From a virus, in IMG/VR virus record IMGVR_UViG_3300046007_011228, positions 1-27,856 of that record: a stretch of 27,856 nt of DNA; one strand, given 5' to 3'. Positions 7,701-27,856 of this stretch are shown here, one piece after another. A program made the position numbers and the translations under genes. The notes below the pieces were generated by a model. The model was not told the DNA's origin, made no database searches, and saw only the letters and a list, made by a program, of their open reading frames with translations. Each line of letters opens with the position of its first letter. The first letter of the stretch is position 1.

Positions 7701-8810
7701 TTAAGCTGACATGTCTTTGCCAGTTAACCCAATTTCTTCTTTCTCAATGATAAAATCATCATACTCAGTATTCAAATGAGCTTTGATAAACTCTTTGTGT
7801 TGGTCTTTGTAATCATTAATTTTATCTGGGGCCCAATACCCATGTGGTGTAGAAGCAATTTTACCCTTCTGAACAACACCATTTACTTGGTTCTTTTCGC
7901 ATCTAACGCGAGTTTCAACACCAAATTCATATTCCTCACCACCTAATGTAGCTTTAAGTTTCTCAGTACTATGTGTTAATATACCACCAAAGTGAACAAT
8001 AAGTCTTGGAGAATAGAAGAAAGCTTCACCACCTTTGTGTTTGATAACTTTATTTTCATTATCAAGCCATATTTGTTGTACCACAGCAAATGTAGCGGTA
8101 TAAGGTGAATCTTCGTTTCTAGACGCTGGGATTCTGTAATTGATAAGAGATTTAAAACAATTCGCCAAAGCACCAGCAGTCCATTGGTTATTTGTCGTTT
8201 TTGAAGTAGCTCCTTTGAAACAGTTGATTGAACCTACTGAATCCCAAAAGAATGCTACGTCTCTTGGTAATACACCTTCTTGTTGTTTATCTAAGATATA
8301 ATGCATGTGTGTTGATATATCTTCAACTACTGGTTCATATCTTAATGGTTTAGTACCCATTTTGCTATGTTGATGGTCATAATTTTGATAACGCTTTAAC
8401 AAATCTGAGTTTCTCATAAAGATAAAATCACCCTTGTAATTTGTTATTTCACCTGTTTCTTCATCAACAACTTCTTCGTATTTAACTCCGATGTTTCTAG
8501 CATGTTCCCAGTTCCAGTTACCTTCTGTTTCGTAGATAATAGGTAGGATACCTAATTTTTGACAACCAGCAACACCTTCATATATTGCAGTTGATTTTCC
8601 AGTGTTCGAATAACCTCTAAAACTGGTAAAGAATCCAATTGGAATACCTGGAATCTTTAATGCGTCATGGAATGCTTCTGATAATGGAATCCATGATAAT
8701 TCTTTGTCTTTGACAACATTGTCTAATCCTTCACTTTCTTTAAAATCATCTAAATTAAATTCTTTTTTTGCAATTGTTGTTTTACTTGTTTTGGTAGGTT
8801 TTACCGCCAT
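7701..8810 (-). CDS. uvsX: RecA-like recombinase UvsX
   Basis: Strand-exchange ATPase for recombination-dependent replication and repair, 369 residues (T4 UvsX 391). Walker A is GYSNTGKST at 66-74, with the family-typical IYETEG (92-97) following one strand later; Walker B is DVAFFWDSVG at 184-193. LLKRYQNYD and the later FAVVQQIW segment fit the RecA core, and the acidic C-terminal region may limit DNA entry as in RecA. Its gene follows the ssDNA-binding protein and the HNH insertion, with a terminator hairpin between, so it probably has its own promoter or is reached by read-through. The leader is A-rich (ATATTTAAAAATG) and lacks a Shine-Dalgarno. Confidence 0.95.
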   Translation of the reverse strand: MAVKPTKTSKTTIAKKEFNLDDFKESEGLDNVVKDKELSWIPLSEAFHDALKIPGIPIGFFTSFRGYSNTGKSTAIYEGVAGCQKLGILPIIYETEGNWNWEHARNIGVKYEEVVDEETGEITNYKGDFIFMRNSDLLKRYQNYDHQHSKMGTKPLRYEPVVEDISTHMHYILDKQQEGVLPRDVAFFWDSVGSINCFKGATSKTTNNQWTAGALANCFKSLINYRIPASRNEDSPYTATFAVVQQIWLDNENKVIKHKGGEAFFYSPRLIVHFGGILTHSTEKLKATLGGEEYEFGVETRVRCEKNQVNGVVQKGKIASTPHGYWAPDKINDYKDQHKEFIKAHLNTEYDDFIIEKEEIGLTGKDMSA

Positions 8811-8905: not shown

Positions 8906-8915
8906 AATCAATAGA
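8895..8915 (-). pseudogene. Remnant of the ssDNA-binding protein C-terminus (S-I-D-L-P-F-stop)
   Basis: Reading 8915 to 8895 on the minus strand gives TCT ATT GAT TTA CCT TTC TAA, that is SIDLPF-stop, out of frame with the overlapping end of the HNH gene. The intact ssDNA-binding protein 620 nt upstream ends DDLPF-stop. The best explanation is that the HNH gene landed at the 3' end of the ssb gene and left the old tail codons behind. The stretch is short, so coincidence cannot be excluded. Confidence 0.45.
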
Positions 8916-9453
8916 TGTATTTTATTTTACATTCCTCAAAATATTCAATATGTTTTTCTTTAGAATCCAAAAGAATACCATCTAATCGCCTATACATCAT
9001 TCTTTCTTGGTCATAAGTTATATACCTATGTAAAAAATAATGGTCTTTTATTGATAATTCAATAATGTCTAACCAATCTTCTTGATTATATGACCAATGA
9101 TGTAAATGTAAATCACTGTTTTTAGTTAAATAAATCTCTGTATATTTTCTAGCTAAAGCTTTCTCAGGGAATTTTTGATTATACCTTTTAATTATTTCCT
9201 TTTTCTTATTAGAAGTTGGTTTGTATAAATCTTTATAACCTAATCTATGGTATTTATCTCTACCACGTTTTTTCTCTTTAGCGACCCATTCTGGGTTTTC
9301 TTTTAATTTTTCTTCATTTTTTTTAACATCATTTTTAGTACATATTTTACACTTATTTAAATACCCATCACTCATTTGAGCGTGTTTATAAAACATATCT
9401 AAAGGTAAAATATTTTCACACTTAAAACATTTTTTTTCTTTTAATTCATCCAT
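8908..9453 (-). CDS. HNH homing-type endonuclease with N-terminal zinc finger
   Basis: 181-residue nuclease of the free-standing homing type. A zinc-binding knuckle is formed by Cys9-x2-Cys12 and Cys35-x2-Cys38, as in many phage HNH and endonuclease VII-like proteins; a lysine-rich linker follows (about 40-90). The HNH core is LHLHHWSYN (His118-His119) through KDHYFLHR (His138, His142), and the C-terminal [15 protein letters not shown] is a repeated feature of this group. It sits between the ssDNA-binding protein gene and its apparent old terminator. A 13-bp inverted repeat ends at its start codon and could hide it in long transcripts. Like its neighbours it is AT-rich. The endonuclease call is firm; homing activity is inferred from its position. 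Confidence 0.88.
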
Positions 9454-9527: not shown

Positions 9528-10427
9528 TTAAAATGGCAAGTCGTCAAGGTCATCTTCTTCAGTAGAAGCTTGTGTTGATGTTTCAGTAGCTACTTGAGCT
9601 TGGATGTTAGATTTAACATTTTCAATACCCATAGTCAACTCAGATTCTAATTTGTTTTTAGCTTCACTTTCGTTGATTAACTCTTTAGCAACAAAACATT
9701 TTTCATCTTTGTCCCATACTGGAGTGTAACCTCTTACGATGATAGCTAAATAATCATAAGTTCTAACTGAATAAACATCTTCCCAAGTTCTTTCGTCAGA
9801 TAACCAATCGCTAGTCTTAGTTTCATCCTCAGATAATACAGAAGGGTCTAACGCTTGGATTCCTGAAACTACAGGAACATTGTTTTGGTTTCTAGAAATA
9901 GTAACCACAATGTCTCTACCAGTCTCTGGACTAGTCACGTCTTTTTTCAAGGCACTAATCATAGCAAATAATTTGTCATAAACACCACCTTTAGTGTAGT
10001 CGTGATTAAATCTCCAGAATTTAACACCTTCTTCTTCTTTATCTCTATCGATAACTTTTACAACGTACATTAAACGCGCATTGTATTTTTTTGCCAATTC
10101 TTTGTCAGAGTCTTTTCCAGTCGCTAACAATTCTTGACGAGCTTCGCAGAAAGGACAAGCCTCACCTTTTTCATGTTTAAGACATGGGAATGTTTTCCAT
10201 TCTCCGTCAACCATTACTTTGTGACCATACATTTCTACAAAAGGACTACCATTTTTAGTTGGTAAGATTCTGATTGTTTTAGTACCACTTTTAACACCTT
10301 CTGGAATGTAAGTGTTGAAGTAATTCTTCAAATCATAGGTTTTCGCTTCTTGTTTTTCGTACTTAGGAGCATTATTCTTCTCGTACTGTGCTAACATAGC
10401 GTCTAAAGCATTCATTTGTTCACTCAT
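9528..10427 (-). CDS. 32: Single-stranded DNA-binding protein, T4 gp32-like
   Basis: Coats ssDNA at forks and recombination intermediates. 299 residues (T4 gp32 301). The zinc site matches gp32 in order and spacing: His69, Cys82, Cys91, Cys94 (CLKHEKGEACPFCEAR region; gp32 uses His64, Cys77, Cys87, Cys90). The OB-fold core runs to about 230, with aromatic-rich segments such as GVKFWRFNHDY. The C-terminus ends EEDDLDDLPF, an acidic tip with a terminal Pro-Phe that looks like the tip of bacterial SSB (DDIPF) more than the gp32 tail. Two tandem host-like promoters lie upstream after a terminator, so this gene heads the replication operon and is probably transcribed early or mid-infection. An HNH gene follows at 74 nt. 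Confidence 0.93.
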   Translation of the reverse strand: MSEQMNALDAMLAQYEKNNAPKYEKQEAKTYDLKNYFNTYIPEGVKSGTKTIRILPTKNGSPFVEMYGHKVMVDGEWKTFPCLKHEKGEACPFCEARQELLATGKDSDKELAKKYNARLMYVVKVIDRDKEEEGVKFWRFNHDYTKGGVYDKLFAMISALKKDVTSPETGRDIVVTISRNQNNVPVVSGIQALDPSVLSEDETKTSDWLSDERTWEDVYSVRTYDYLAIIVRGYTPVWDKDEKCFVAKELINESEAKNKLESELTMGIENVKSNIQAQVATETSTQASTEEDDLDDLPF

Positions 10428-12720: not shown

Positions 12721-12752
12721 CAAATATACTAAAAATATTTTAAGAAGGAAAA
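12721..12752 (-). promoter_or_regulatory. Bacteroidota-type promoter of the 198-residue gene
   Basis: TATATTTG at 12728-12721 on the minus strand, inside the shared block TTTTTAGTATATTTG also seen at the ssb promoter P2. At the -33 position, 20 nt upstream, is TTTT (12752-12749), a 3 of 4 match to TTTG that overlaps the end of the hub gene. Confidence 0.6.
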
Positions 12753-15700
12753 TTAAATTTTTTATTTTTTATCATAGTGTAAAATTGATTTGCAAAACTA
12801 GTTCTATTACTAAAAGAATTATCAACAACATTTAATTGTTTAAACCTTTTATCTACACTATTTTCTGAAAAATTTATCATACCTAAAGAACCACCTTCAT
12901 AAGTAACATAAAATATTTTAGTAGAATTTTCCACATTTTTATTAGTTTTTAAATTTTTACCAGTATATTTAAAATTACCGTTTAATTCGTTTGTAATGAA
13001 TTTTATTTGGTCAATATATGAAGTTGCATCTAAATTATTTTTATTTAAAAAATCAAATAATGGACCTTGTCTATCACCATACCATTGAACTAAACCATAA
13101 TCACCCCCAGTTTTATTTTTAGCTGTTGGGTTAAAACGACTTTCTTGGTACATATTACCCATTATACCAGCTATAGCTTCATCTGGATAACCTAATTGTT
13201 TTTTTAATTGGTCGTAAATTAAATTAGGTTGTATTTGTTTACCACTATCTATTATATTTTTTGAAACCCCATCTTTATTTAAGTTTGCTTCTTTGGCTAA
13301 ATCTTTGTTATTATAATATTTATTATTAGTTTTTAATACTAACAATTTATAATCTTTTACATTTGTTTCGTTTGTAATATAACCATCACTTAAAGTTATT
13401 TCAGAAACCTTAACCGAATCACTTACATTACCACCAATTAAAAATATTTTATTGTTTTGTATTTTATAAACCACATCACAATGGCTTGCTGTATAACTAC
13501 CTTCTCTAGTTTGACATAATAGGCAACCAACTTCTGGTTTTATTTTTAAACCAGAATTTAACGGAAATACTTCATAACCATTAACACCTTTCATAGCGTC
13601 AGTAACATACGTGTGATGACCAGTAGATTTCATAAAATTAGAATCCCCAGCTAACATAATAAAAGATGTAAAAGCCGCACTCCATGGTTGTAAGTTATTA
13701 CTAGCATCTGATGGTGTTATACCTGGTGTTTTATCCGTATATTTTTTTATTATGGTTAAAGCATCTTTTTCATCTAATTGACCATTTTTCCAAATAGTAA
13801 ATTCTTCTTCAGCTACTTTAGTTAAATTTTTACTATTTTTTAATTCAACACCAATTATTAAAGTGTCTTTTGGTTTGTTATTTAATAATGTTGAAAAATA
13901 AGTATTGATATAATTGCCATTACCTCTAACTGTTGTAGAACCACCCTTAACTTCAGATAAATCTAAGGTTTCAATTAAACTCATATATGCGTCAGCAACA
14001 TCAAATAATGGTGTTTCAATAGCTCTAATTCTACTACCAGTAAACCATGTTGTCATGTGATTAGGTTTAATGTTATGTCTAGTTCTTATAATCATATAAG
14101 CACCATGGAACATTGGTATGTTATTTAATTGAAAATACATCATAGGTTGAATCATTGGATTACCTAGCATTTCTATTTCAGCACTATAACTTCTAACACC
14201 ATATATATTATACATGTTTTGACCAGCATATGTTGGTTTATTTTCAAACCCGTTCATAGATATATCTTGTACAATCTTTAAAGATTCTTCAGTTTCAGAA
14301 AATTCGCTTTGGTCCAAAGTTATGTCTTTAAATATATTTTGATTTTGCTGCGAATAATTAACCTCAAAAACAGCAACTGGGTCCTCATATGGTTGTAAGG
14401 CGTTTTTAAAATCGTCTGGAATTGTTGTTGAATTACAGCGCATATCAAAACCATCATTTGGGTATCTTCCAGATTTAATATCTAAACTTTTCGAATGTTG
14501 TCCCGTATAAACACAAACAAATGTCGGACCGCATGATGTTATAGAATTACCATATTCTTGCGGGGTAAAAACAGATTGTAACATTTCGTCATCTCTATAA
14601 TTAATAAAAGTTGGTAACGAATGAAACTCAAATTTATTATCGTTTAATAAACCACTAATTACACTATAACTAGATGTGTTAGGAAAATCTGATATTTGCT
14701 CTTCAACAGGTCTAGGGTCGATAAATAATTCGTCACCAATATCTCTAAAAGACCTAGTTACAAATCTAAAACTATCAATTAATCTAGGTTTACCTGAACC
14801 ATATTTATCAGATAAAGCTGTGTCTGTTTGTTTTCTATTACTATCAGTTCTAGAATTATCACCACATTGGAATATTACGTTGTTAATATCTTGAACACCA
14901 CCAACCCACTTATCATAAATGTTTTTACAGTGTTTATACAACATTAATTTAATGTCGTTTTTATTACTCATACCGAAAACTTCATTTAGTTGTTTTTCTT
15001 CCTCACCTTGTATTGTCGTACCTTCAGTTAAAGCTTTTATTTCTTCTGTAAACGTTTTAAAATATTCACCATAAACATCTTTTTTTATTGTAACACCTTG
15101 TCTGTATTGAGCATATTTTTTTGGATTCCAAATTTTATAACCAGTGTTTACAATTATTAATTCTTCTTTAAAAATGTCTTTTAATTTACCTACAATATCT
15201 GAATCATCTTTTAATTCCAAATATATTGAACTTAAATACTCTGCACCACCTATATCACTATAAACAGGTAAAATGACATTATAATTATCATAATTTTTAA
15301 AATTATCTGTTATGTCACTACCTTTTACGTAATTACTAGAAACATTTGTTTTTTTTATAAAAGTATTTGGTAAATCTGGTTGTGAAAATCTATTAACTAA
15401 ATTACAAAATCCTAACCCAGTACCATCGTAAATTTCTAATTTAGACGCTATGTTAGTAAATGACGTTTCACCTTCACCATTAATAAATTCAAAAAATACT
15501 TCTTTAAATTTATCTTGTACTTGTCTAGGTAAATTAAGTAGTATACTATCACTTTCAATATCTTCAGGGTCTAACATTAACATTTTAGGTAAATATTGAT
15601 TTTTAGTAGGTTTACACGCCCAATTACCTGAATCATTTCCACAATCTTTTCTCCAAATAATAGGGTCCGTCTTACCTCTACCACCACCAATTATTTTAGT

Positions 15701-18700
15701 TCCAGAAACTTTTGGGTCTTCTTCAGATAACCACCACAATAAACCACCAACATAGGCTACCCATAATTTAGGTGTATGTATAAAACCAGCGTTTATGTCA
15801 AATAAATGTCGTATTTCAGGTACTTGAAAAGGATTGTTTTTATTATTTTTTACTGTACCACTTGGGTTATTGACAACGTTACCAGTTTCATATATTTTAA
15901 ACGGTAATGTGTTTAAAAACAATAAACCTCTAACATATTTTTCTGCAATCGATGATTGTCTATTATCATAAAAATTAATAACATTATTTTTCTGAAAATA
16001 ATAAAATTTACTACCAAAAAGAGAAATTGTTTTTCTTCTACCATCGCTAATATCTAAATATTGACTTATAAAAGGATAACTTACATCACTACTATCCATA
16101 TTTCTAGATAAACTCCAATTAGAACCATAATCTTTATGTAAAGGTTTAGCGTAGCTACCTTTGTATTTACCTGTTTCTAATATACTTTGTATATCTATGT
16201 TTCTTTCTTCATATGTATTAGATAAATTTATATTACCCGTTTTATTAAAATCATAATCACTTTTTAAATTTTTAGACGCTTTTCTAGATAACCCTAAACC
16301 ATTTAGGATACTATTTTGTTCATAAAAAATAAACATTGATTTTGGTTGGCTCGTTTTGAACTCTTCACCAAAATTAATATTACTATAATCTGAAATTCCA
16401 TAATTACCTCCAAAAACATTAAAACCTGCACTAGCAATTGAATCTTCTTTTAAAGCTTTTAAATCTAAAACCATTTCTGTTTTTAAATTTGTATCATATA
16501 AGCTTTCAGTTGTAGTTGGGATAATATCTGATGGTTGTTTTATTTCTATATAAATACCACCATCATTAGATTTGGCGTTATCAACAGAATCAGAACCTAA
16601 AGCGTTTAAACCACCACCATAGTTTGTTAAAAATATTTTACCAGAACTAGCATATTCTCTTAATTTATCTTGTTCAATATAAGTCCTAGCAAATGGTTCA
16701 CTTTGATAAGCAGTTTCTAAATCTTCACCTTCAATATCAAAACCAATAGGTAATAATTTAAAATCATTTAATAAACCACCATCTTCTTTGTTAACATAGT
16801 TGTAATAATAATCACCTCGCGTTGTCTCACCAATCACATATCTATCACTACCAGAAATCTTACCAATTGTTTTTTTTATGTTATCTTGTTCTATTTTATT
16901 AAATAATGATTTTACTGTAGGATTTAATAACGCATCATATAACATTCTAGCTTCTAATTTAGCCATTGTTTGTATTTCACCATCTTCACCAGCAGTTAAA
17001 TAATCTTGGTCATTGGAATAACCTAAAAATGTCATAGCTCTAACCAAAACAGTTCTTAAAGCTTGTTGTGTGTTTATTATATCTTTTTTAGCATAAGGAT
17101 TACCGCTAACACCAAAAACCTTAGTATCTAAAGGATTTGTTGGTATAAATAATGTTTCATCACCAGCATTTAATAAATCTGATTCTTTTTGTTGTTTGTT
17201 AGCTGTTAGGAACGCTTTTAATAAATCGTCAATAAAAACTAATTCGTCTATGTCTGATATATTATTTTTTAGTTCAGGACATGAACCTAAATACGTATCA
17301 ACATAAGCATTTGTTTTACTATCTTTTTCTCTGTAATCTGGCCATGGCCAATAATTAATTTTTTCGGTATAATCACTTTTATTTAAATCTTGACCAAAAG
17401 CTGTTTGTAATAATTCTTTTCTTATGACATTGTTTTCAGCTTTATTTGAAACAGTCCATATAGTTTCCATGAAAACTTCAATTAAATTAGTGAATATTTC
17501 AACCATATTTCTAACAGTTGGTTCAAAACCTAAAGTAACAGCAACCTTGTCTTTTATCTGAATAGCTAACGCTCTATTAGCGTCTTTTAAACTAGTTTCA
17601 GATAAAGATTTTTGAATTTCAAGTATTTTATATCTAGACCTTAAATCAAACGCTCTAAATGTTACGTTTGATGCTAAATTAAAATTGTTTTTTATATAAT
17701 TTTTTAAATCCTTTTTAAAAGATTCTATTTCCGAGGCGTCTTTATAAATACCAATTTGTAAATCATAGTCTGGTTCTAATTTATCTAAAGTTAATTCAGT
17801 TATAATTGTTGGTGATGCAAATTCATTTTCATTTATTGATAAGCCATTAATTTTTAAATCGTTATATTTTTTTATTGTTTCTTTTATCTCGGCATTTATC
17901 GCATTATAATTTGCATTTTTTTCATTAGAAAAAGGTGTATTATCCATAACAACAAAACTATATTCAGTTGTTTCTGTTGTATTATCTTTTTTTGTTATAG
18001 AAAATTGGTCGTTTAAATTAGCTAAATTTAAATTTAAACTAGATAATAAATTGTTAGATTCTTGAAACGAAACTATATCTTTTGATTCAGATGAAGTTGC
18101 AGCAGCTTTTTGTATTTCTTCACTTATATCAGCTATTTTTTTTCTTAATTCAACTAAATTTAAAATAGGTTGTTTACCTTTGTCTGTTCTTTCTGTGTTG
18201 TAATTATTAAATATAGTCCCACCAATATTTGTTAAATGAATAACTTTTAAAACACCAACAAGCATGTCTGATAATAAGGCATATGTATACCCAATAAACT
18301 CACAACTAATTTCAAAATTACCAGTTTGTGAATTAAATTTAGAGTTAAACTTAGTCATATGTAAACAATACGTTACTGGTTGACCATAATAACCTTTTAC
18401 TTCCAACTCAAACATTGGATAAGGAAATTCAAAAAATGTTGTATATTTGTTTTGTGAATTATCTTGTGTTAACGATTCTTCGTTTTGAAAAATAGAAGAC
18501 CCTTTAACATCAACAAAATCAATTTTAATTACTGGTGTGTATGAAGTATTATAATCTATATCAATATTAGTTATACCAAATGTTTCTGGGTTAAACTCAT
18601 CTTTGTCAAATACTGTTGTTAATTGAGTGTACTTTGTTGTTAACACTTTTTTACCATTAATATCAGAACCTTCAATAAAATTTATAGTAGCACCTTTTTG

Positions 18701-18916
18701 TTCTTTAACAACGGTGTTTTCATCTTCACTAGTAGCAATAGTTGTTCTAGATTTTTTTGTTGTTGTTAATTTAACTGATATTGTTAAATCTTCAATTCTA
18801 ACTGGTATGTTTCTAGATGAGTTTGTTTCACCATAAAACGCGTTAGGGTCTATAATTTTTGTTCTATCTCCAGTGCCAGTACCAAAACGGCACCCTATTT
18901 TAGGTTGATTATCCAT
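12740..18916 (-). CDS. Giant baseplate hub protein with C-terminal DUF2272-like and phage-lysozyme-like domains
   Basis: 2058 residues, the longest gene here. The N-terminal part (FFEFPYPMFELEVKGYYG, then EISCEFIGYTYALLSDMLVG, about 160-230) has the beta-rich look of tail-tube/hub proteins. Around 1582-1629, MIQPMMYFQLNNIPMFHGAY and IIRTRHNIKPNHMTTWFTGS fit the close of a gp27/gpD-type hub domain. A DUF2272-like segment follows (PWSAAFTSFIMLAGDSNF, about 1740, with HHTYV and HCDVVY). The C-terminus is a phage tail lysozyme-like domain: AIAGIMGNMYQESRFNP with putative catalytic Glu1925, then YGLVQWYGDRQG. It probably joins hub and cell-wall-cutting roles that T4 splits between gp27 and gp5. 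Its ATG overlaps the LysM gene by 8 nt. No gp5-like triple-helix spike repeat was seen. Confidence 0.85.
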   Translation of the reverse strand: MDNQPKIGCRFGTGTGDRTKIIDPNAFYGETNSSRNIPVRIEDLTISVKLTTTKKSRTTIATSEDENTVVKEQKGATINFIEGSDINGKKVLTTKYTQLTTVFDKDEFNPETFGITNIDIDYNTSYTPVIKIDFVDVKGSSIFQNEESLTQDNSQNKYTTFFEFPYPMFELEVKGYYGQPVTYCLHMTKFNSKFNSQTGNFEISCEFIGYTYALLSDMLVGVLKVIHLTNIGGTIFNNYNTERTDKGKQPILNLVELRKKIADISEEIQKAAATSSESKDIVSFQESNNLLSSLNLNLANLNDQFSITKKDNTTETTEYSFVVMDNTPFSNEKNANYNAINAEIKETIKKYNDLKINGLSINENEFASPTIITELTLDKLEPDYDLQIGIYKDASEIESFKKDLKNYIKNNFNLASNVTFRAFDLRSRYKILEIQKSLSETSLKDANRALAIQIKDKVAVTLGFEPTVRNMVEIFTNLIEVFMETIWTVSNKAENNVIRKELLQTAFGQDLNKSDYTEKINYWPWPDYREKDSKTNAYVDTYLGSCPELKNNISDIDELVFIDDLLKAFLTANKQQKESDLLNAGDETLFIPTNPLDTKVFGVSGNPYAKKDIINTQQALRTVLVRAMTFLGYSNDQDYLTAGEDGEIQTMAKLEARMLYDALLNPTVKSLFNKIEQDNIKKTIGKISGSDRYVIGETTRGDYYYNYVNKEDGGLLNDFKLLPIGFDIEGEDLETAYQSEPFARTYIEQDKLREYASSGKIFLTNYGGGLNALGSDSVDNAKSNDGGIYIEIKQPSDIIPTTTESLYDTNLKTEMVLDLKALKEDSIASAGFNVFGGNYGISDYSNINFGEEFKTSQPKSMFIFYEQNSILNGLGLSRKASKNLKSDYDFNKTGNINLSNTYEERNIDIQSILETGKYKGSYAKPLHKDYGSNWSLSRNMDSSDVSYPFISQYLDISDGRRKTISLFGSKFYYFQKNNVINFYDNRQSSIAEKYVRGLLFLNTLPFKIYETGNVVNNPSGTVKNNKNNPFQVPEIRHLFDINAGFIHTPKLWVAYVGGLLWWLSEEDPKVSGTKIIGGGRGKTDPIIWRKDCGNDSGNWACKPTKNQYLPKMLMLDPEDIESDSILLNLPRQVQDKFKEVFFEFINGEGETSFTNIASKLEIYDGTGLGFCNLVNRFSQPDLPNTFIKKTNVSSNYVKGSDITDNFKNYDNYNVILPVYSDIGGAEYLSSIYLELKDDSDIVGKLKDIFKEELIIVNTGYKIWNPKKYAQYRQGVTIKKDVYGEYFKTFTEEIKALTEGTTIQGEEEKQLNEVFGMSNKNDIKLMLYKHCKNIYDKWVGGVQDINNVIFQCGDNSRTDSNRKQTDTALSDKYGSGKPRLIDSFRFVTRSFRDIGDELFIDPRPVEEQISDFPNTSSYSVISGLLNDNKFEFHSLPTFINYRDDEMLQSVFTPQEYGNSITSCGPTFVCVYTGQHSKSLDIKSGRYPNDGFDMRCNSTTIPDDFKNALQPYEDPVAVFEVNYSQQNQNIFKDITLDQSEFSETEESLKIVQDISMNGFENKPTYAGQNMYNIYGVRSYSAEIEMLGNPMIQPMMYFQLNNIPMFHGAYMIIRTRHNIKPNHMTTWFTGSRIRAIETPLFDVADAYMSLIETLDLSEVKGGSTTVRGNGNYINTYFSTLLNNKPKDTLIIGVELKNSKNLTKVAEEEFTIWKNGQLDEKDALTIIKKYTDKTPGITPSDASNNLQPWSAAFTSFIMLAGDSNFMKSTGHHTYVTDAMKGVNGYEVFPLNSGLKIKPEVGCLLCQTREGSYTASHCDVVYKIQNNKIFLIGGNVSDSVKVSEITLSDGYITNETNVKDYKLLVLKTNNKYYNNKDLAKEANLNKDGVSKNIIDSGKQIQPNLIYDQLKKQLGYPDEAIAGIMGNMYQESRFNPTAKNKTGGDYGLVQWYGDRQGPLFDFLNKNNLDATSYIDQIKFITNELNGNFKYTGKNLKTNKNVENSTKIFYVTYEGGSLGMINFSENSVDKRFKQLNVVDNSFSNRTSFANQFYTMIKNKKFNFPS

Positions 18917-23370: not shown

Positions 23371-25836
23371 TTATTTTCTATCAGAATTTTTACCATTTAT
23401 ATTTTTTTCAAGTTGAGATTGAACAACTCTAGTAATTGATGATTTAAATTCAGAACTTTTTAACAATTCAGAACCAATTTGTGAACCACCTGGTAAAGTA
23501 ACCTTTATTTCTCCAGTAATATTTAATTCACCAAATTCAACTCTTGTTAAACTATTACTTGTAGCTTTAGTGTTATTAAGGGTTTTATCAACCACTCCAC
23601 CAGGTTTCATTGCCAATAATTCATCTTTATTATCAATTGGTGTTATTTTACCTCCTTGTGTTAACATTCTACCTTTAGAATGGTTAGGTCCTAATTTTGG
23701 AAATTTAACATCATTTTGAGGTTCGTCAAATAATCCTCCAATATAACCACCAGCCATTCCACCTAATGCCATACCTATAGGTAGTGGTATACCTAAAAGC
23801 TGACTAGCTGCGCCAATAGCTGTACCTATACCACTACCAATCATAGCGCCAGTTCCACCACCACCAATAGCTGTACCACCAATTGTACCAACAGCACCAC
23901 CAAGTCCAGCTCCAACACTACTAAGTGCGGTTTTACCAAAACTACTAGCCATAGAACCACGACTCATATTGGTTATCATCTTACCTTGAGGGCTATTAGC
24001 TGGATAAGTTTTACCGCTTTTCGAAGTTACCATTCCATTAGAACTAGGTCCACCTTTACCACCAAACATACCCATACCTTTAGTTCCCATTAAAAATCCT
24101 TTAGATAAAGACAATCCATTTAAAAACCATTTCCCCACTTCAAATAAACCCATAAGAGCTTTACCTGTCAACCATGTATAAAATATACCTTTAGGACCTA
24201 AAGCGACAGCCATTTGTATTAAAGGTTTAACCCATTCAGCTGCACCTGAAATAAAATTACCAAGTTGTTCACCTAAACTTTTTAATTCGTTTTTAAAGGC
24301 CGTACCTTTTTCTCCCATTAAATCATCTATAACTGGTTTTAATACATTTGATAACCCTTCAACAATTGGCATCATATAAATTTTAACCATGTTTAACAAG
24401 TTATTTAACGTTTCATCAAAAGATTGTGCAGCATCTGCCCTTTCTTTCATTGTTTTTTTCTCTTCTACTTGACGTTTTAAATAATCTCTATCAGCTTTTG
24501 TTATATGACTTAATAATTTTTTATCACCACTCTCAACTTGAATATAAGCTTTACCGTTTTTAAATTCAGCTGTATTTGCAACAAACTCTTTTACATCATC
24601 AGGTAACCCAGAAGATTGCATTTCAATTTTACCCATTTTAAATTGAGTTTTACCTAACTCAACCAATTTTTCATATTCAAGACCAGTTTGCTCCGCAATT
24701 ATTTTTAACCTATGCATTTCCATGGCGTTAGTTTCAATACTACCATCTTTAGCAAAAGTCATTGATTGAGATGCAGCCTTAGCAATATCTTCTGTTAAAC
24801 CTTGAATATCATTACGCGCTTGATACATTAATTTGAAAGGGTCGGCCATTTGAGCCCATGCACCACCCATAACGTTTAATTGTGCCGACATTTCAACAGC
24901 ACCTTCAACGTTCCAAAGCTTATCAGACATACCAGCAGCAAAATCCATTTCAACACCTAATTTAGTCGCCATTTGAGCCATTTTAGTGATACCCTTAATA
25001 CCATCTTTAAAACGATACTTATTAAGCATTTTAAAGTTTTGGTTTAAGTTCTTCATTACTTTGGTAGTGTTTAACCCCATAGCACTAGAATTATTTAAAG
25101 TTTCTTCCATAAATTCTCCAGTCCTATCTGCCGACACACCCATTTTGTCAAACTGAGCGGCCATTTCAGTAGCACCTTCAATACCTAGACCACTAGATTT
25201 ACCCATTTCAGCAATAGCTTCAAGGCCCTTCTGAGAAACTAATACATTTCTACCTAAAGACTCTGCGTATTGTGCTTGAATTTCAGCAATCTCTTTAATC
25301 CCAACACCAAAAGAAACTGTGTTTACAGCGGCTGATTTTATATTTTGTCTTACTATATCACTTTGCTTGCCAAGAGTACCCATTTGATTAACGGTTACTC
25401 TAATGGCTTTGTCCATTTCAAAAAGACCTTTTAAAAGACCTAATTTACCTGTAATAAAATTAGGTATTTTATCAAGATTAGAAGCACCTTTAACAACACC
25501 AGCCATTGCTGTACCACCAGCTAATTTAAATTTATTAACGTCTTTTATAGTTTGTTTAATAACATCTCTATTCTTTTCTAATAAAGCAAGTTCTTTTTTT
25601 AATGCGGCTACTTTTAATTTACCTTCTTCTGTTTGGTCTTTCTCTAATTCTAATATTTGTTTATTAACATTTTTAATATCAGAAGTTAAATTACTAACAT
25701 CTTTAACACCCTTTGTAAACCCATCCCATCCACTATTTATTTCTTTCTGGATGTTATACATTTCTTTTAATTCAGCCCTAGCCTTAGCTAAAGCTTTTTC
25801 GAATGCTTTTAATTCTTCTTCATTCATTTCAGCCAT
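23371..25836 (-). CDS. Tail tape measure protein
   Basis: Sets tail length and leaves the tube on DNA ejection. 821 residues; by the usual rule of about 0.15 nm per residue it would span roughly 120 nm. The first 120 residues are strongly coiled-coil (NIQKEINSGWDGF, LELEKDQTEEGKLKVAALKK), the centre is helical with repeated small-residue segments (AIAEMGKSSGLGIEGATEMA), and residues about 635-702 are a glycine/alanine-rich hydrophobic stretch (GAGLGGAVGTIGGTAIGGGG...) typical of tape measures and possibly membrane-inserting. The C-terminus is beta-like (VEFGELNITGEIKVTLPGGS). The order chaperone-like frames, 422-residue gene, tape measure, tube cap fits a tail module. No separate lysozyme domain is seen in it. 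Confidence 0.88.
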   Translation of the reverse strand: MAEMNEEELKAFEKALAKARAELKEMYNIQKEINSGWDGFTKGVKDVSNLTSDIKNVNKQILELEKDQTEEGKLKVAALKKELALLEKNRDVIKQTIKDVNKFKLAGGTAMAGVVKGASNLDKIPNFITGKLGLLKGLFEMDKAIRVTVNQMGTLGKQSDIVRQNIKSAAVNTVSFGVGIKEIAEIQAQYAESLGRNVLVSQKGLEAIAEMGKSSGLGIEGATEMAAQFDKMGVSADRTGEFMEETLNNSSAMGLNTTKVMKNLNQNFKMLNKYRFKDGIKGITKMAQMATKLGVEMDFAAGMSDKLWNVEGAVEMSAQLNVMGGAWAQMADPFKLMYQARNDIQGLTEDIAKAASQSMTFAKDGSIETNAMEMHRLKIIAEQTGLEYEKLVELGKTQFKMGKIEMQSSGLPDDVKEFVANTAEFKNGKAYIQVESGDKKLLSHITKADRDYLKRQVEEKKTMKERADAAQSFDETLNNLLNMVKIYMMPIVEGLSNVLKPVIDDLMGEKGTAFKNELKSLGEQLGNFISGAAEWVKPLIQMAVALGPKGIFYTWLTGKALMGLFEVGKWFLNGLSLSKGFLMGTKGMGMFGGKGGPSSNGMVTSKSGKTYPANSPQGKMITNMSRGSMASSFGKTALSSVGAGLGGAVGTIGGTAIGGGGTGAMIGSGIGTAIGAASQLLGIPLPIGMALGGMAGGYIGGLFDEPQNDVKFPKLGPNHSKGRMLTQGGKITPIDNKDELLAMKPGGVVDKTLNNTKATSNSLTRVEFGELNITGEIKVTLPGGSQIGSELLKSSEFKSSITRVVQSQLEKNINGKNSDRK

Positions 25837-25838
25837 TA

Positions 25839-27107
25839 TTAACTATTTTTTTTTAATTTTTCATAAGATGTATAACCTTCAGAATCTAAAAATTTAATTC
25901 TGACATTTTCAACAAAATATTTATTTTCCTCGACATTATTTTTATTAACATATACGTCACAAAAATATTCATCAGGTCTTTCACCAGTTGGTTTTTTTAC
26001 AATTATCTTGAAACCAAAAGACCCACCACTACTTCTATATGTTAAAACTTTTACGTCACCTAACCCAGCTTCATATTGTCTAACAGTTGCTTTATAATAA
26101 CCAGCGTTTAAAGTAAAATTTTTAAATTCTTCTTCATTTATTTTTTTATACCTTATATTAATATCATCAAATAAATAAAAACTAGCTCTTTTATTTTCTT
26201 TATTAGCAAATCCTGGTAATTTTTCATCAATTTTTTTATTAAAATAACCGTTAATTATTTCATATGCGGGAAAAATACCTTTACCTCTAGCTTTTTCGTT
26301 ATTTAAAGCAGACGTGAAATAATTCCAAAATGAAGGTGCTTTATAAAAAGCTTTCTTTAAATTAGGGTCGTTTATGATTTCTTTATAATACTTATTAAAT
26401 AAATCATTATAATAATCAGGGTTAATTTTATTTTTATTTTTTTCTATGTTAATCTCTTCAAATTTTATAATTTCTTCAATTTGATTATCACCATCATTTT
26501 TAATAATTGTCATTTCTTTATTTTTATCATCTATATTTTTAATAACAACATCAAAATTATCTTGGTCTTTACCATAAACATCATCACCTTCAATAGAAGT
26601 TATTGTAATAGAATAAGTTTCATCATTTTGATTTTTAACTGTTATTATATTATTAACTTCTAAACCACTTAAATTTTTAGATTGATTATTTTGTTGTTGA
26701 TTTACATTTATGTTGTTATTTGACTGATTATTTGTTGGTTTAGTAATATTTTCTGGAGCGACAAATAAATCATTATCTCTCCAAATATTCATATCTTTAA
26801 CATAAACTTTTTTAGGTATGTATTTTTTAGCAACATCATCAAATTGATGATAAGTTAAAAAATCGTTTTTTTCGTTGAATTCACCAATCCTTAACATTAT
26901 TTTTTCATTTTTTGGACCATAAGCTAAAATTTCATTATTAGGTATGTTTACGCTAGTGATTTTTAAATTTACGTTTTGATTATTTTTTAACGTAAAACTT
27001 AAAATATCACCATTCTTAATGTATTTAAAATCATTATTTATGTCTTCCAATAAAAATTTAGTTAACTTAAGATATTGTGTTTCAGTTAAAATTATTTTCT
27101 TTTTCAT
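25839..27107 (-). CDS. Tail-module protein of unknown function with duplicated beta domains and an LTE N-terminus
   Basis: 422 residues, not recognised. The N-terminus MKKKIILTETQYLKLTKFLL followed by E has two (L/I)xE sites, like a head or virion propeptide. Residues 28-75 (KNGDILSFTLKNNQ, LKITSV, EILAYG) and 148-192 (EVNNIITVKNQNDETYSITI, TSIEGDDVYGKD) are two versions of one small beta-barrel-like unit, joined by an Asn/Gln linker at 122-145. The C-terminal half has YYKEIINDPNLKKAFYKAPS and FWNYFTSALNNEKARGKGIF and a final beta-rich part (RQYEAGLGDVKVLTYRSSGG). It lies between the chaperone-like frames and the tape measure, 2 nt before the latter. The motif GATATTTATAAATAAAAC lies 14 nt upstream. 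Presumably virion- or tail-assembly-related. Confidence 0.8.
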   Translation of the reverse strand: MKKKIILTETQYLKLTKFLLEDINNDFKYIKNGDILSFTLKNNQNVNLKITSVNIPNNEILAYGPKNEKIMLRIGEFNEKNDFLTYHQFDDVAKKYIPKKVYVKDMNIWRDNDLFVAPENITKPTNNQSNNNINVNQQQNNQSKNLSGLEVNNIITVKNQNDETYSITITSIEGDDVYGKDQDNFDVVIKNIDDKNKEMTIIKNDGDNQIEEIIKFEEINIEKNKNKINPDYYNDLFNKYYKEIINDPNLKKAFYKAPSFWNYFTSALNNEKARGKGIFPAYEIINGYFNKKIDEKLPGFANKENKRASFYLFDDINIRYKKINEEEFKNFTLNAGYYKATVRQYEAGLGDVKVLTYRSSGGSFGFKIIVKKPTGERPDEYFCDVYVNKNNVEENKYFVENVRIKFLDSEGYTSYEKLKKNS

Positions 27108-27138: not shown

Positions 27139-27163
27139 TAAAAATCCCCAAAATGGGGATTAA
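27139..27163 (-). terminator. Rho-independent terminator after the gp26-like/chaperone genes
   Basis: AATCCCCA (27161-27154 on minus) pairs with TGGGGATT (27150-27143) around a 3-nt loop and is followed by TTTTAATTT. It begins directly after the stop codon at 27164. Confidence 0.85.
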
Positions 27164-27406
27164 TTAATTTAATGGGATTTCTCCAGATTTCATTTTTGAT
27201 TTTAAAGCGTCTCCAGATATTTTTGTTTTTCTAGAACCCTTAGCGTTTGAATTTGTTGTACCCGCATTATCTTCTATGTATTGTTGCTGTTTTTCATGTT
27301 GGTTTAATAATAAATTAATAAAAAACCTTCTTTCATATACTGGCATCGACATTACATCAATATAAGGTGTTTTCAATTGTTGCATAACGATAAAAGTTTC
27401 TTCCAA
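27164..27406 (-). CDS. Small tail-assembly protein, possibly made by frameshift from the gp26-like gene
   Basis: 80 residues if started at the TTG at 27406; the first ATG (27385) would give 73. Notable wording: YIDVMSMPVYERRFFINLLL (about 15-34), then a Gln/Lys-rich tail ending KSKMKSGEIPLN. The same frame is open further upstream to a TAA at 27470-27472, through the end of the gp26-like gene, and those codons read like protein (FFGLTSEYKPIVLEETFIVM), yet contain no ATG or GTG. That fits either a TTG start or a +1/-2 ribosomal shift from the gp26-like frame. Position before the tape measure is that of tail assembly chaperones, or of T4 gp51 after gp26. The terminator follows at once. Confidence 0.7.
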   Translation of the reverse strand: MEETFIVMQQLKTPYIDVMSMPVYERRFFINLLLNQHEKQQQYIEDNAGTTNSNAKGSRKTKISGDALKSKMKSGEIPLN

Positions 27407-27416
27407 AACAATTGGT

Positions 27417-27856
27417 TTATACTCGGAAGTCAGGCCAAAAAAATCTGACGTTAAGGGGAAGAAAGGTTTTTATGGACCCACCTCCAGGAGTCCCAACCTC
27501 AATATCTAAATCAATACCAGTCTCAATGGATTCAACAAATTTATTGAATTCTTTTGAATCTTGTATTCTCATATAATTAACAAAATCTCTAATCATAGTT
27601 TTATTGGTATCACCATTAACTTCAATAATCATTTTTTCTAATTTGTAAGTATTCGCGTTGTTAACTAAAATATTGTTTTCCCTATCTCTCTCTAACATTT
27701 CTTCAATATTATCAATATCACCACATGTTAATAATTTAAATCTAACATTTGCTTTGCTTAAAGGCATAATAAAATTAAATAACCCATCTTCATCTGGTTC
27801 AACGTTTAAATCGATTGTTTTAAGTTCATTTAAATTTATTTCCGTTTCAAAAGCTT
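27417..27856 (-). CDS. 26: gp26-like baseplate hub / tail assembly protein (C-terminal 145 residues; start outside the window)
   Basis: The frame is open through the right edge: upstream of the internal ATG at 27767 it reads TEINLNELKTIDLNVEPDED then GLFNFIMPLSKANVRFKLL without a stop, so the true start lies beyond the window. The centre is helical (DIDNIEEMLERDRENN, about residues 46-61 of the visible part), and the end FLPLNVRFFWPDFRV resembles the FFWP-type C-terminus I associate with T4 gp26 and its cyanophage relatives (T4_baseplate family). In T4, gene 25-26-51 precede 27-29, and gp26 is needed for hub assembly. Here it precedes the small overlapping frame and, further on, the tape measure. 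Family assignment is from pattern only. Confidence 0.6.
   Translation of the reverse strand, partial: AFETEINLNELKTIDLNVEPDEDGLFNFIMPLSKANVRFKLLTCGDIDNIEEMLERDRENNILVNNANTYKLEKMIIEVNGDTNKTMIRDFVNYMRIQDSKEFNKFVESIETGIDLDIEVGTPGGGSIKTFLPLNVRFFWPDFRV
27435..27443 (-). promoter_or_regulatory. Candidate programmed frameshift site (T7 run)
   Basis: The minus-strand sequence AGA TTT TTT TGG in the gp26-like frame contains seven T (27443-27437). After two Phe codons, a +1 or -2 slip re-pairs tRNA-Phe on TTT and continues as GGC CTG ACT TCC in the next frame, joining the two proteins. No shift leaves 6 further codons to the stop. Confidence 0.4.

Follow-up and report, generated by a model that had tools for sequence, protein, structure and literature searches.

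Very probable +1 programmed ribosomal frameshifting between a gp26-like gene and the following frame in a phage tail locus

The window analysed here is a stretch of viral DNA of 27,856 nt, and the frameshift locus lies on its minus strand, as do all features of the locus described below. The gp26-like gene in its short form occupies 27417..27854; the window ends inside this gene, whose 5' end is lost at the window edge and whose upstream neighbours lie outside, and its 3' end reads GTC AGA TTT TTT TGG CCT GAC TTC CGA GTA TAA, with the stop TAA at 27419-27417. Within this end a run of seven T (27437..27443), read AGA TTT TTT TGG in the gp26 frame, forms the putative shift site TTT TTT T(GG); the adjoining GGCCTGACT (27428..27436) gives GGC CTG ACT in the +1 frame and (T)GG CCT GAC T.. 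in the gp26 frame. The +1 frame is open from an upstream stop to its own stop (27164..27469), the upstream TAA at 27470..27472 setting the upstream limit on the shift position; in relatives this frame is marked by a T-domain profile and by its codon-position pattern. The dual-frame region extends from the shift site to the gp26 stop (27417..27443), and the post-shift part of the +1 frame (27436-27164) would supply a 90-residue T-like extension plus stop.

Directly 3' of the +1-frame stop lies a terminator-like hairpin with a T tail (27143..27161); a hairpin search of the window returned two sites, one hairpin counted once per strand, where shuffled sequences would give 0.2. The tape measure gene is transcriptionally downstream (23371..25836; phrog_167 tail length tape measure, E=3.2e-10). 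The locus had initially been placed before it; one gene of 422 aa (25839-27107, minus strand) intervenes between the chaperone gene and the tape measure gene, and for this gene Pfam gave nothing at E<=1 and phrog nothing better than E=0.033. Elsewhere in the window, a 2058-aa protein (12740-18916, minus strand) matches phrog_9570 over its C-terminal part (E=5.8e-18), a family also labelled tape measure, although it is another gene of the window that matches the tape measure family phrog_167. A 181-aa ORF (8908-9453, minus strand) with Cys pairs and a His-rich LHLHHWSYN segment appears HNH-endonuclease-like by eye and sits between RecA-like (7701-8810) and gp32-like (9528-10427) genes, likewise named by eye. 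No tRNAs were found within the window, a genome fragment.

From 27469 the +1 frame of the window reads KPFFPLTSDFFGLTSEYKPIVLEETFIVMQQLKTPYIDVMSMPVYERRFF..., and its first ATG, GTG or TTG is a TTG at 27406, 63 nt past the frame opening; the codons before this TTG read KPFFPLTSDFFGLTSEYKPIV and include one CTG. The first-pass annotation, made from the letters of the window, had reported the T run giving TTT TTT TGG and the lack of ATG and GTG in the overlapping codons, with only CTG and a late TTG, all of which we confirmed on the sequence; the frame is also open before its first start as claimed, over 63 nt, the figure of 66 nt given at that time having counted the stop codon.

To place the locus in its family, relatives were collected by four scans. 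The initial scan gave 14 loci of 53-99% identity, and TTTTTTTGGCCTGAC together with an open +1 frame was kept in 14/14. Three further scans contributed the best 80 of 149, the best 80 of 599 and the best 80 of 600 matches, and divergent members are consequently under-sampled. Together with the window, the 263 loci made a set of 264 sequences, with the gp26-type frame on the plus strand in 262; 215 were left after dropping identical regions and loci short of post-stop sequence, and clustering at 90% yielded 173 representatives including the window, which share descent, so that counts of representatives are not independent trials. The amino-acid anchor [FL][FL][WFY]P was present in 168 of the 173. 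The motif set (n=167) differs slightly from the anchored 168: L053 and L024 were excluded for a +1 frame below 120 nt and L020-L023 for having no YTTYTTT, and L019 was kept. Three groups of 41, 71 and 54 account for 166 of these 167 (all except L019) and were defined by the finding scan, not by a tree. Protein identity between the window's group (A) and aligned members of the other groups is 25-33%; Flavobacterium phage immuto (group B) and Microcystis phage Mel-JY01 (group C) are 51% identical.

The +1 frame remained open for at least 120 nt beyond the gp26 stop in 171/173 representatives, compared with 13/173 for the other frame. The two exceptions are L024, in which the arrangement is -1, and L053, in which the T domain is read in +1 over only 103 nt. 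Counted from the site, the +1 run was at least 202 nt long, with a median of 274, in all 167 members of the motif set, whereas random starts inside the same gp26 genes gave +1 runs with an 18-nt median, all of them shorter than 195 nt. Beyond the gp26 stop, both of the other two frames ran into a stop codon in 41/41 and 71/71 loci of two groups, and in 52/54 and 54/54 loci of the third. Codon differences in the post-stop +1 frame at positions 1/2/3 amounted to 0.37/0.25/0.51, 0.30/0.21/0.52 and 0.40/0.28/0.59 in the three groups; the third position is the most variable and the second the least in all three, which indicates purifying selection in the +1 frame.

Conservation at the site itself is far above the gene background. 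TTT TTT TGG CCT was found in 141/168 anchored representatives and close variants in the rest (TTTTTTTGGCCT 141, TTTCTTTGGCCT 14, TTTCTTTACCCT 3, TTTTTTTTCCCT 3, TTTTTTTACCCT 3, CTTTTTTGGCCT 3 and TTTCTATTCCCT 1), and TTT or CTT stood at both site codons, with T as the next base, in 167/168. The fraction of pairs sharing an amino acid that also share its codon was 1.0, 1.0, 1.0 and 0.972 at the F, F/L, P and D columns, relative to a mean of 0.53 (sd 0.14) over 236 scorable gp26 columns, of which these four rank as the top four for synonymous conservation; both Phe columns and the Pro column were at 1.0 within each group alone (41, 71 and 54 representatives). The Pro codon was CCT in 168/168 anchored representatives, and the column after it (motif set, n=167) showed GAC in 96 against GAT in 1, and AAC in 34 against AAT in 0. 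Elsewhere in the gp26 genes, TTC makes up 257/1325 of Phe codons, CCT 472/1363 of Pro codons and GAC 585/2782 of Asp codons. A conserved slippery sequence, as in G/GT-type chaperone genes, is thus present, and the frames overlap in the window and across the survey. The alignment check put forward with the first-pass annotation accordingly came out in its favour, with the T run, the overlap and the +1-frame protein all conserved in relatives; the opposite outcome, an ATG-started downstream gene without overlap or selection confined to the gp26 frame, is not the picture given by the survey.

The direction of the shift was assessed from the bases around the site. T precedes TTTTTT sites in 0/147 cases, though 40% of gp26 third bases are T; a T at this place would create T TTT TTT, a -1-type heptamer. 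Where the T domain lies in the -1 frame, as it does in four relatives, T TTT TTC or an extended T run is indeed present: L024 (GGT TTT TTC; T-profile E=5e-6), Agrobacterium phage Atu_ph07 (CAT TTT TTC; E=0.014), Pseudomonas phage PA5oct (AGT TTT TTC; E=1.3e-3) and L277 (GAT TTT TTT TTC; E=1.7e-17), the best reversed control for these matches being 0.48. L024, which has an ATG just past the gp26 stop, belongs to the survey; L264, L265 and L277 lie outside it. The canonical -1 class X_XXY_YYZ was not found at the window's site, and 171/173 representatives are +1. At the TTT CTT T sites of 17 representatives, and at the divergent sites of L021 and L023, a slip of +1 would re-pair (UUU to UUC, or CUU to UUU), and tRNA-Leu on CUU slips +1 in RF2.

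Taken together, the site, the conserved +1 coding, the constraint on both frames and the gene position, all of which are observed, make it very probable that the gp26-like gene and the next frame are joined by +1 programmed ribosomal frameshifting. The occurrence of the shift and its direction, codon, frequency and function are predicted from the sequences as follows. A single tail assembly chaperone gene would comprise the gp26-like gene together with the +1 frame after it. Most ribosomes would terminate at the gp26 stop to give a short G-like protein, and at the T run the P-site tRNA-Phe (or tRNA-Leu on CUU) would occasionally slip one base forward, the shifted ribosomes producing a long G-T-like protein with the 90-residue T-like extension at its end. 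By codon count the two products of L001, a near-identical longer copy of the window gene, would have about 421 (short) and 505 (long) residues. By analogy with lambda, the short form may coat the tape measure and the long form recruit tube subunits.

Several other explanations of the same layout were weighed against +1 frameshifting. The first-pass annotation had left the slip open between +1 and -2. A -2 ribosomal shift on the same T run, of the type reported for Mu, would let P-site UUU re-pair two bases back in TTTTTTT and enter an identical downstream frame, the long protein gaining one extra Phe; however, TTT CTT T sites permit no cognate -2 re-pairing, since in these 17 representatives the CUU tRNA-Leu would face UUC after the shift, and the divergent sites of L021 (TTC TTT CGT) and L023 (TTT CTA) do not fit it either. 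The +1 reading is therefore favoured and we give -2 little credence. Slippage by the polymerase on the T run, leading to a mixed mRNA population, draws on the 7-T homopolymer of most relatives, but seven T is short for transcriptional slippage, and T runs do not exceed 3 in TTTCTTT relatives (4 at a single locus) or 6 in CTTTTTT ones, all of which keep the +1 arrangement, making this explanation very improbable.

If instead the +1 frame were a separate gene, translated from a non-ATG start or by reinitiation after the gp26 stop, the TTG at 27406 in the window could serve as its start, the Mel-JY01 record has an overlapping gene of its own, and in 109/167 representatives the +1 frame contains some ATG, GTG or TTG ahead of the site (ATG in 41 of them), so that initiation is excluded for part of the representatives only. 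In the remaining 58/167, however, any such codon lies 30 nt or more beyond the site, and 57/58 of these keep [GTS]L right after it. The +1 frame opens 9 nt or less before the heptamer in 37/167, 34/37 of which have no ATG, GTG or TTG before the site, and the possible shift window, bounded by the +1 opening and the gp26 stop, can be as short as 20 nt. Furthermore, the gp26 Phe, Pro and Asp/Asn codons are nearly fixed at the site, which a downstream start would not need, and we regard a separate gene as improbable. Homopolymers are error-prone, and a sequencing error splitting one gene, or a chance overlap of two, was also considered; yet isolates and many metagenomes share the layout, as do sites that lack a homopolymer, and the gp26-frame end FWP is itself conserved, leaving these with hardly any probability.

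Sequences that might stimulate the +1 shift were sought around the site. In the window's group (n=41) the columns before the site are nearly fixed synonymously (TTTCTTCCNCTTAAC), and the 24-nt block ACCTTTCTTCCCCTTAACGTCAGA (27444..27467, minus strand) upstream of the site, written ACCTTTCTTCCCCTTAACGTC for the group, is synonymously conserved in this group only; the fuller pattern TTTCTTCC.CTTAAC.TC was exact in 30/41. The +1 frame is open across the 24-nt block in 41/41 of the window's group, and in 42/71 and 32/54 of the other groups. Read in +1, the block and site in the window's group give mostly PFFxLTSx followed by FFGLT, and the block looks like a copied shift cassette (FFxLTS/FFGLTS); it is a candidate second slip site (UUU C) or a candidate stimulator. 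At the PFF position L042 has LSF, a difference easier to reconcile with a pyrimidine tract than with a protein motif. Consensus RNA folding, applied to 25 of this group's 41 sequences, gave -3.7 kcal/mol. One long-range helix around the site, TTTCTTC/GAAGAAA, had 98.3% of cells paired versus 54-80% when slid, but within the window's group none of its pairs had changed on both sides, and the pairing did not exceed that of shuffled sequences. An SD-like GGAGGTGGG was rejected as a stimulator: it lies ~40 nt upstream of the site, too distant for an RF2-type SD effect. With respect to codon usage, UGG ranks 31st among the codons of the window at 9 per 1000 and is middling, and the new-frame codons GGC (1.7 per 1000) and CTG (0.1 per 1000) are rarer than UGG; a simple rare-codon stall is therefore not evident.

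The arrangement extends to named phages. In immuto the site reads TTT CTT TGG CCT GAC GCC GGA GTA TAG and the +1 frame FFGLTPEYRAGLFAQLHDIVF; in Mel-JY01 it reads TTT TTT TGG CCT AAG TAA and the +1 frame FFGLSNEYRLALHDEIF. T-like extensions in the +1 frame were also found in Rhodothermus phage RM378 (TTT TTT TGG), Bacillus phage SP-15 (TTT TTT CAC), Streptococcus phage GXN1 (TTC TTT CGT), Listeria phage LIS04 (TTT TTT AGT) and the huge metagenomic phage L023 (TTT CTA), with T-profile E-values from 5e-19 to 4.5e-3. By annotation, the gene lies between the tail tube and tape measure genes: LIS04 has the order tube, chaperone gene, tape measure; immuto has 'tail completion protein', chaperone gene, small ORF, tape measure; SP-15 has tube, chaperone gene, ORF, 'putative tail protein'; and Mel-JY01 has tube, chaperone gene and then a large gene without a name. 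RM378 departs from this position, with the tube gene on the opposite strand right after the T frame. In the immuto record (L016, MW353176, 4427-4700) only a 36-residue ORF is annotated between gp26 and the tape measure gene, and in the Mel-JY01 record (L017, PP395634, 4016-4252) the T frame is annotated as a separate overlapping gene; annotation fixes would follow from a +1 shift, the long form being missed in the former record and split off in the latter. A chromosomal example was found in WOR-3 bacterium CP070664 (L280, 6673-12763), with sheath, PF12322 gene, TTT TTT TGG CCT site and +1 T frame; the ORFs in its tube and tape-measure (633-aa) positions had no Pfam match. This island is flanked by cellular genes (oxidoreductase, DNA polymerase) and may be either a phage remnant or a cellular contractile system.

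Membership of the gp26-frame protein in the family PF12322 (T4_baseplate) was established from relatives, with matches above the cut-off of 24.5 bits for L001 (E=2.9e-8, 34.1 bits), SP-15 (100.4 bits) and RM378 (37.6 bits); the window's own cut piece reached 15.1 bits (E=0.019), under the cut-off. The immuto and Mel-JY01 proteins have no Pfam match at E<=0.1 and match phrog_150 'baseplate hub'. T4 gp51 has 249 aa, of which residues 1-201 match PF12322, leaving a tail placed like the T domain. Direct comparison of the T domain with this tail gave a weak match (hhalign probability 30%, T-profile E=0.069). The joined L042 protein (P0003) aligns with the gp51-type phrog_150 across the junction, over 21-282 of 282; that of L263 (P0002) stops at 251 of 282, and that of L078 (P0001) had no phrog_150 match at E<=0.1. 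On these weak matches, T4 gp51 may be a long form encoded as a gene of its own, which would make the window's system related to gp26/gp51, not foreign to it. The first-pass annotation had remarked that frameshifting is not an established feature of T4-type gp26/gp51; the possible kinship of gp51 with the long form refines that remark.

At two loci of bacterial genomes (L284 and L285) a single frame encodes PF12322 and the T domain, which meet at FF; the T profile matched them at E=1.7e-5 and 4.5e-4, compared with 22 and 17 for their reversed controls. L283 looks alike by eye (E=0.5); the three bacterial proteins possibly come from contractile injection systems. DUF6760 (PF20546) matched the T domain of one joined protein weakly (E=0.013), with no match in the window's own record and none over the cut-off in control genomes. 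An AlphaFold2 model of the gp26-frame protein of L001 was confident, with a pLDDT of 88.5 and a pTM of 0.84. Foldseek against the PDB returned nothing significant for this model, the HK97 tail assembly chaperone 2ob9 ranking 25 (E=3.3). VIA-align on the same candidates placed YqbN (3klu), which we take to be a prophage protein of XkdN type, in its first row (Z 5.2, 80 residues, 3.3 A) and the HK97 chaperone 2ob9 in its second (Z 4.4, 91 residues, 4.5 A); these Z values are low and by themselves prove nothing, and Z 2 was reached by 4/736 chains. With a prophage protein and a tail assembly chaperone in the top rows, the comparison of the model is suggestive of a chaperone fold. A PDB sequence search with immuto gp26 gave one row, ComB10 (E=0.029), and that with T4 gp51 gave none.

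A broader reading, which we consider evenly balanced, takes recoding at a terminal Phe-Phe as the usual route to the long chaperone in the PF12322 superfamily. In the large group surveyed here the shift would be +1, at UUU YUU U, and some giant phages would have changed over to -1, at U UUU UUC, together with the sequence surrounding the run; in-frame fusions would take its place in some bacterial loci, and the separate genes of T4 would be another way to the same end. If this is true, the T4 'exception' to G-T frameshifting would be a lineage-specific replacement. A T4-related family that shifts +1 at a heptamer with almost no variation would link T4 gp26/gp51 with the general scheme. To our knowledge, few +1 sites are known in bacteria, and the family, if confirmed, would rank among the largest known for +1 frameshift sites in viruses of bacteria and would supply a large natural alignment of such sites. 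The titles and abstracts found, a weak sample in which subscription journals were thinly covered, contain no +1 site in PF12322 chaperones.

Among known systems, lambda gpG/gpGT is the closest in organization: as described in the available text of a 2016 recoding review (PMC5009743), a short and a long chaperone likewise arise from one gene, with the shift near its 3' end and before the tape measure gene. In lambda the shift is -1, whereas the window's family, as read from sequence, is characterized by a predicted +1 shift, the slippery UUU YUU U and PF12322. The chaperones of phage Adele (Vandenendeviridae/Andersonviridae), as far as their description in the available part of PMC12846349 allows the likening, are also myovirus chaperones with a poly-T site and a second half annotated as a separate hypothetical gene; they differ in shifting -1 at GTTTTT and in belonging to a different taxon. 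The same text, citing Vladimirov 2022, mentions poly-T -1 signals in T4-like chaperone genes, and the PRFect paper (PMC10274946), in the portion available, cites that work for some T4-like phages having a short gene and a fusion gene with no frameshift. A +1 slip with P-site UUU likewise occurs in influenza A (UCC_UUU_CGU, from a title in a reference list) and in a rhizobial ICE, according to the review (PMC5009743); these cases concern other genes and hosts with no chaperone role, and the influenza shift level is described as very low. The review also lists Listeria phage and rhizobial ICE +1 cases and, for the archaeal myovirus HSTV-2, likened here by description, a chaperone shift that is 'very likely +1', as in the present family. 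It describes a wide conservation of G-T frameshifting among long-tailed phages, 'except T4' (PMC5009743). T4 gp26 and the longer gp51 are two genes on opposite strands, unlike the single locus of the window; they belong to the same Pfam family PF12322, and the C-terminal tail of gp51 is placed as the T domain is in the window's family.
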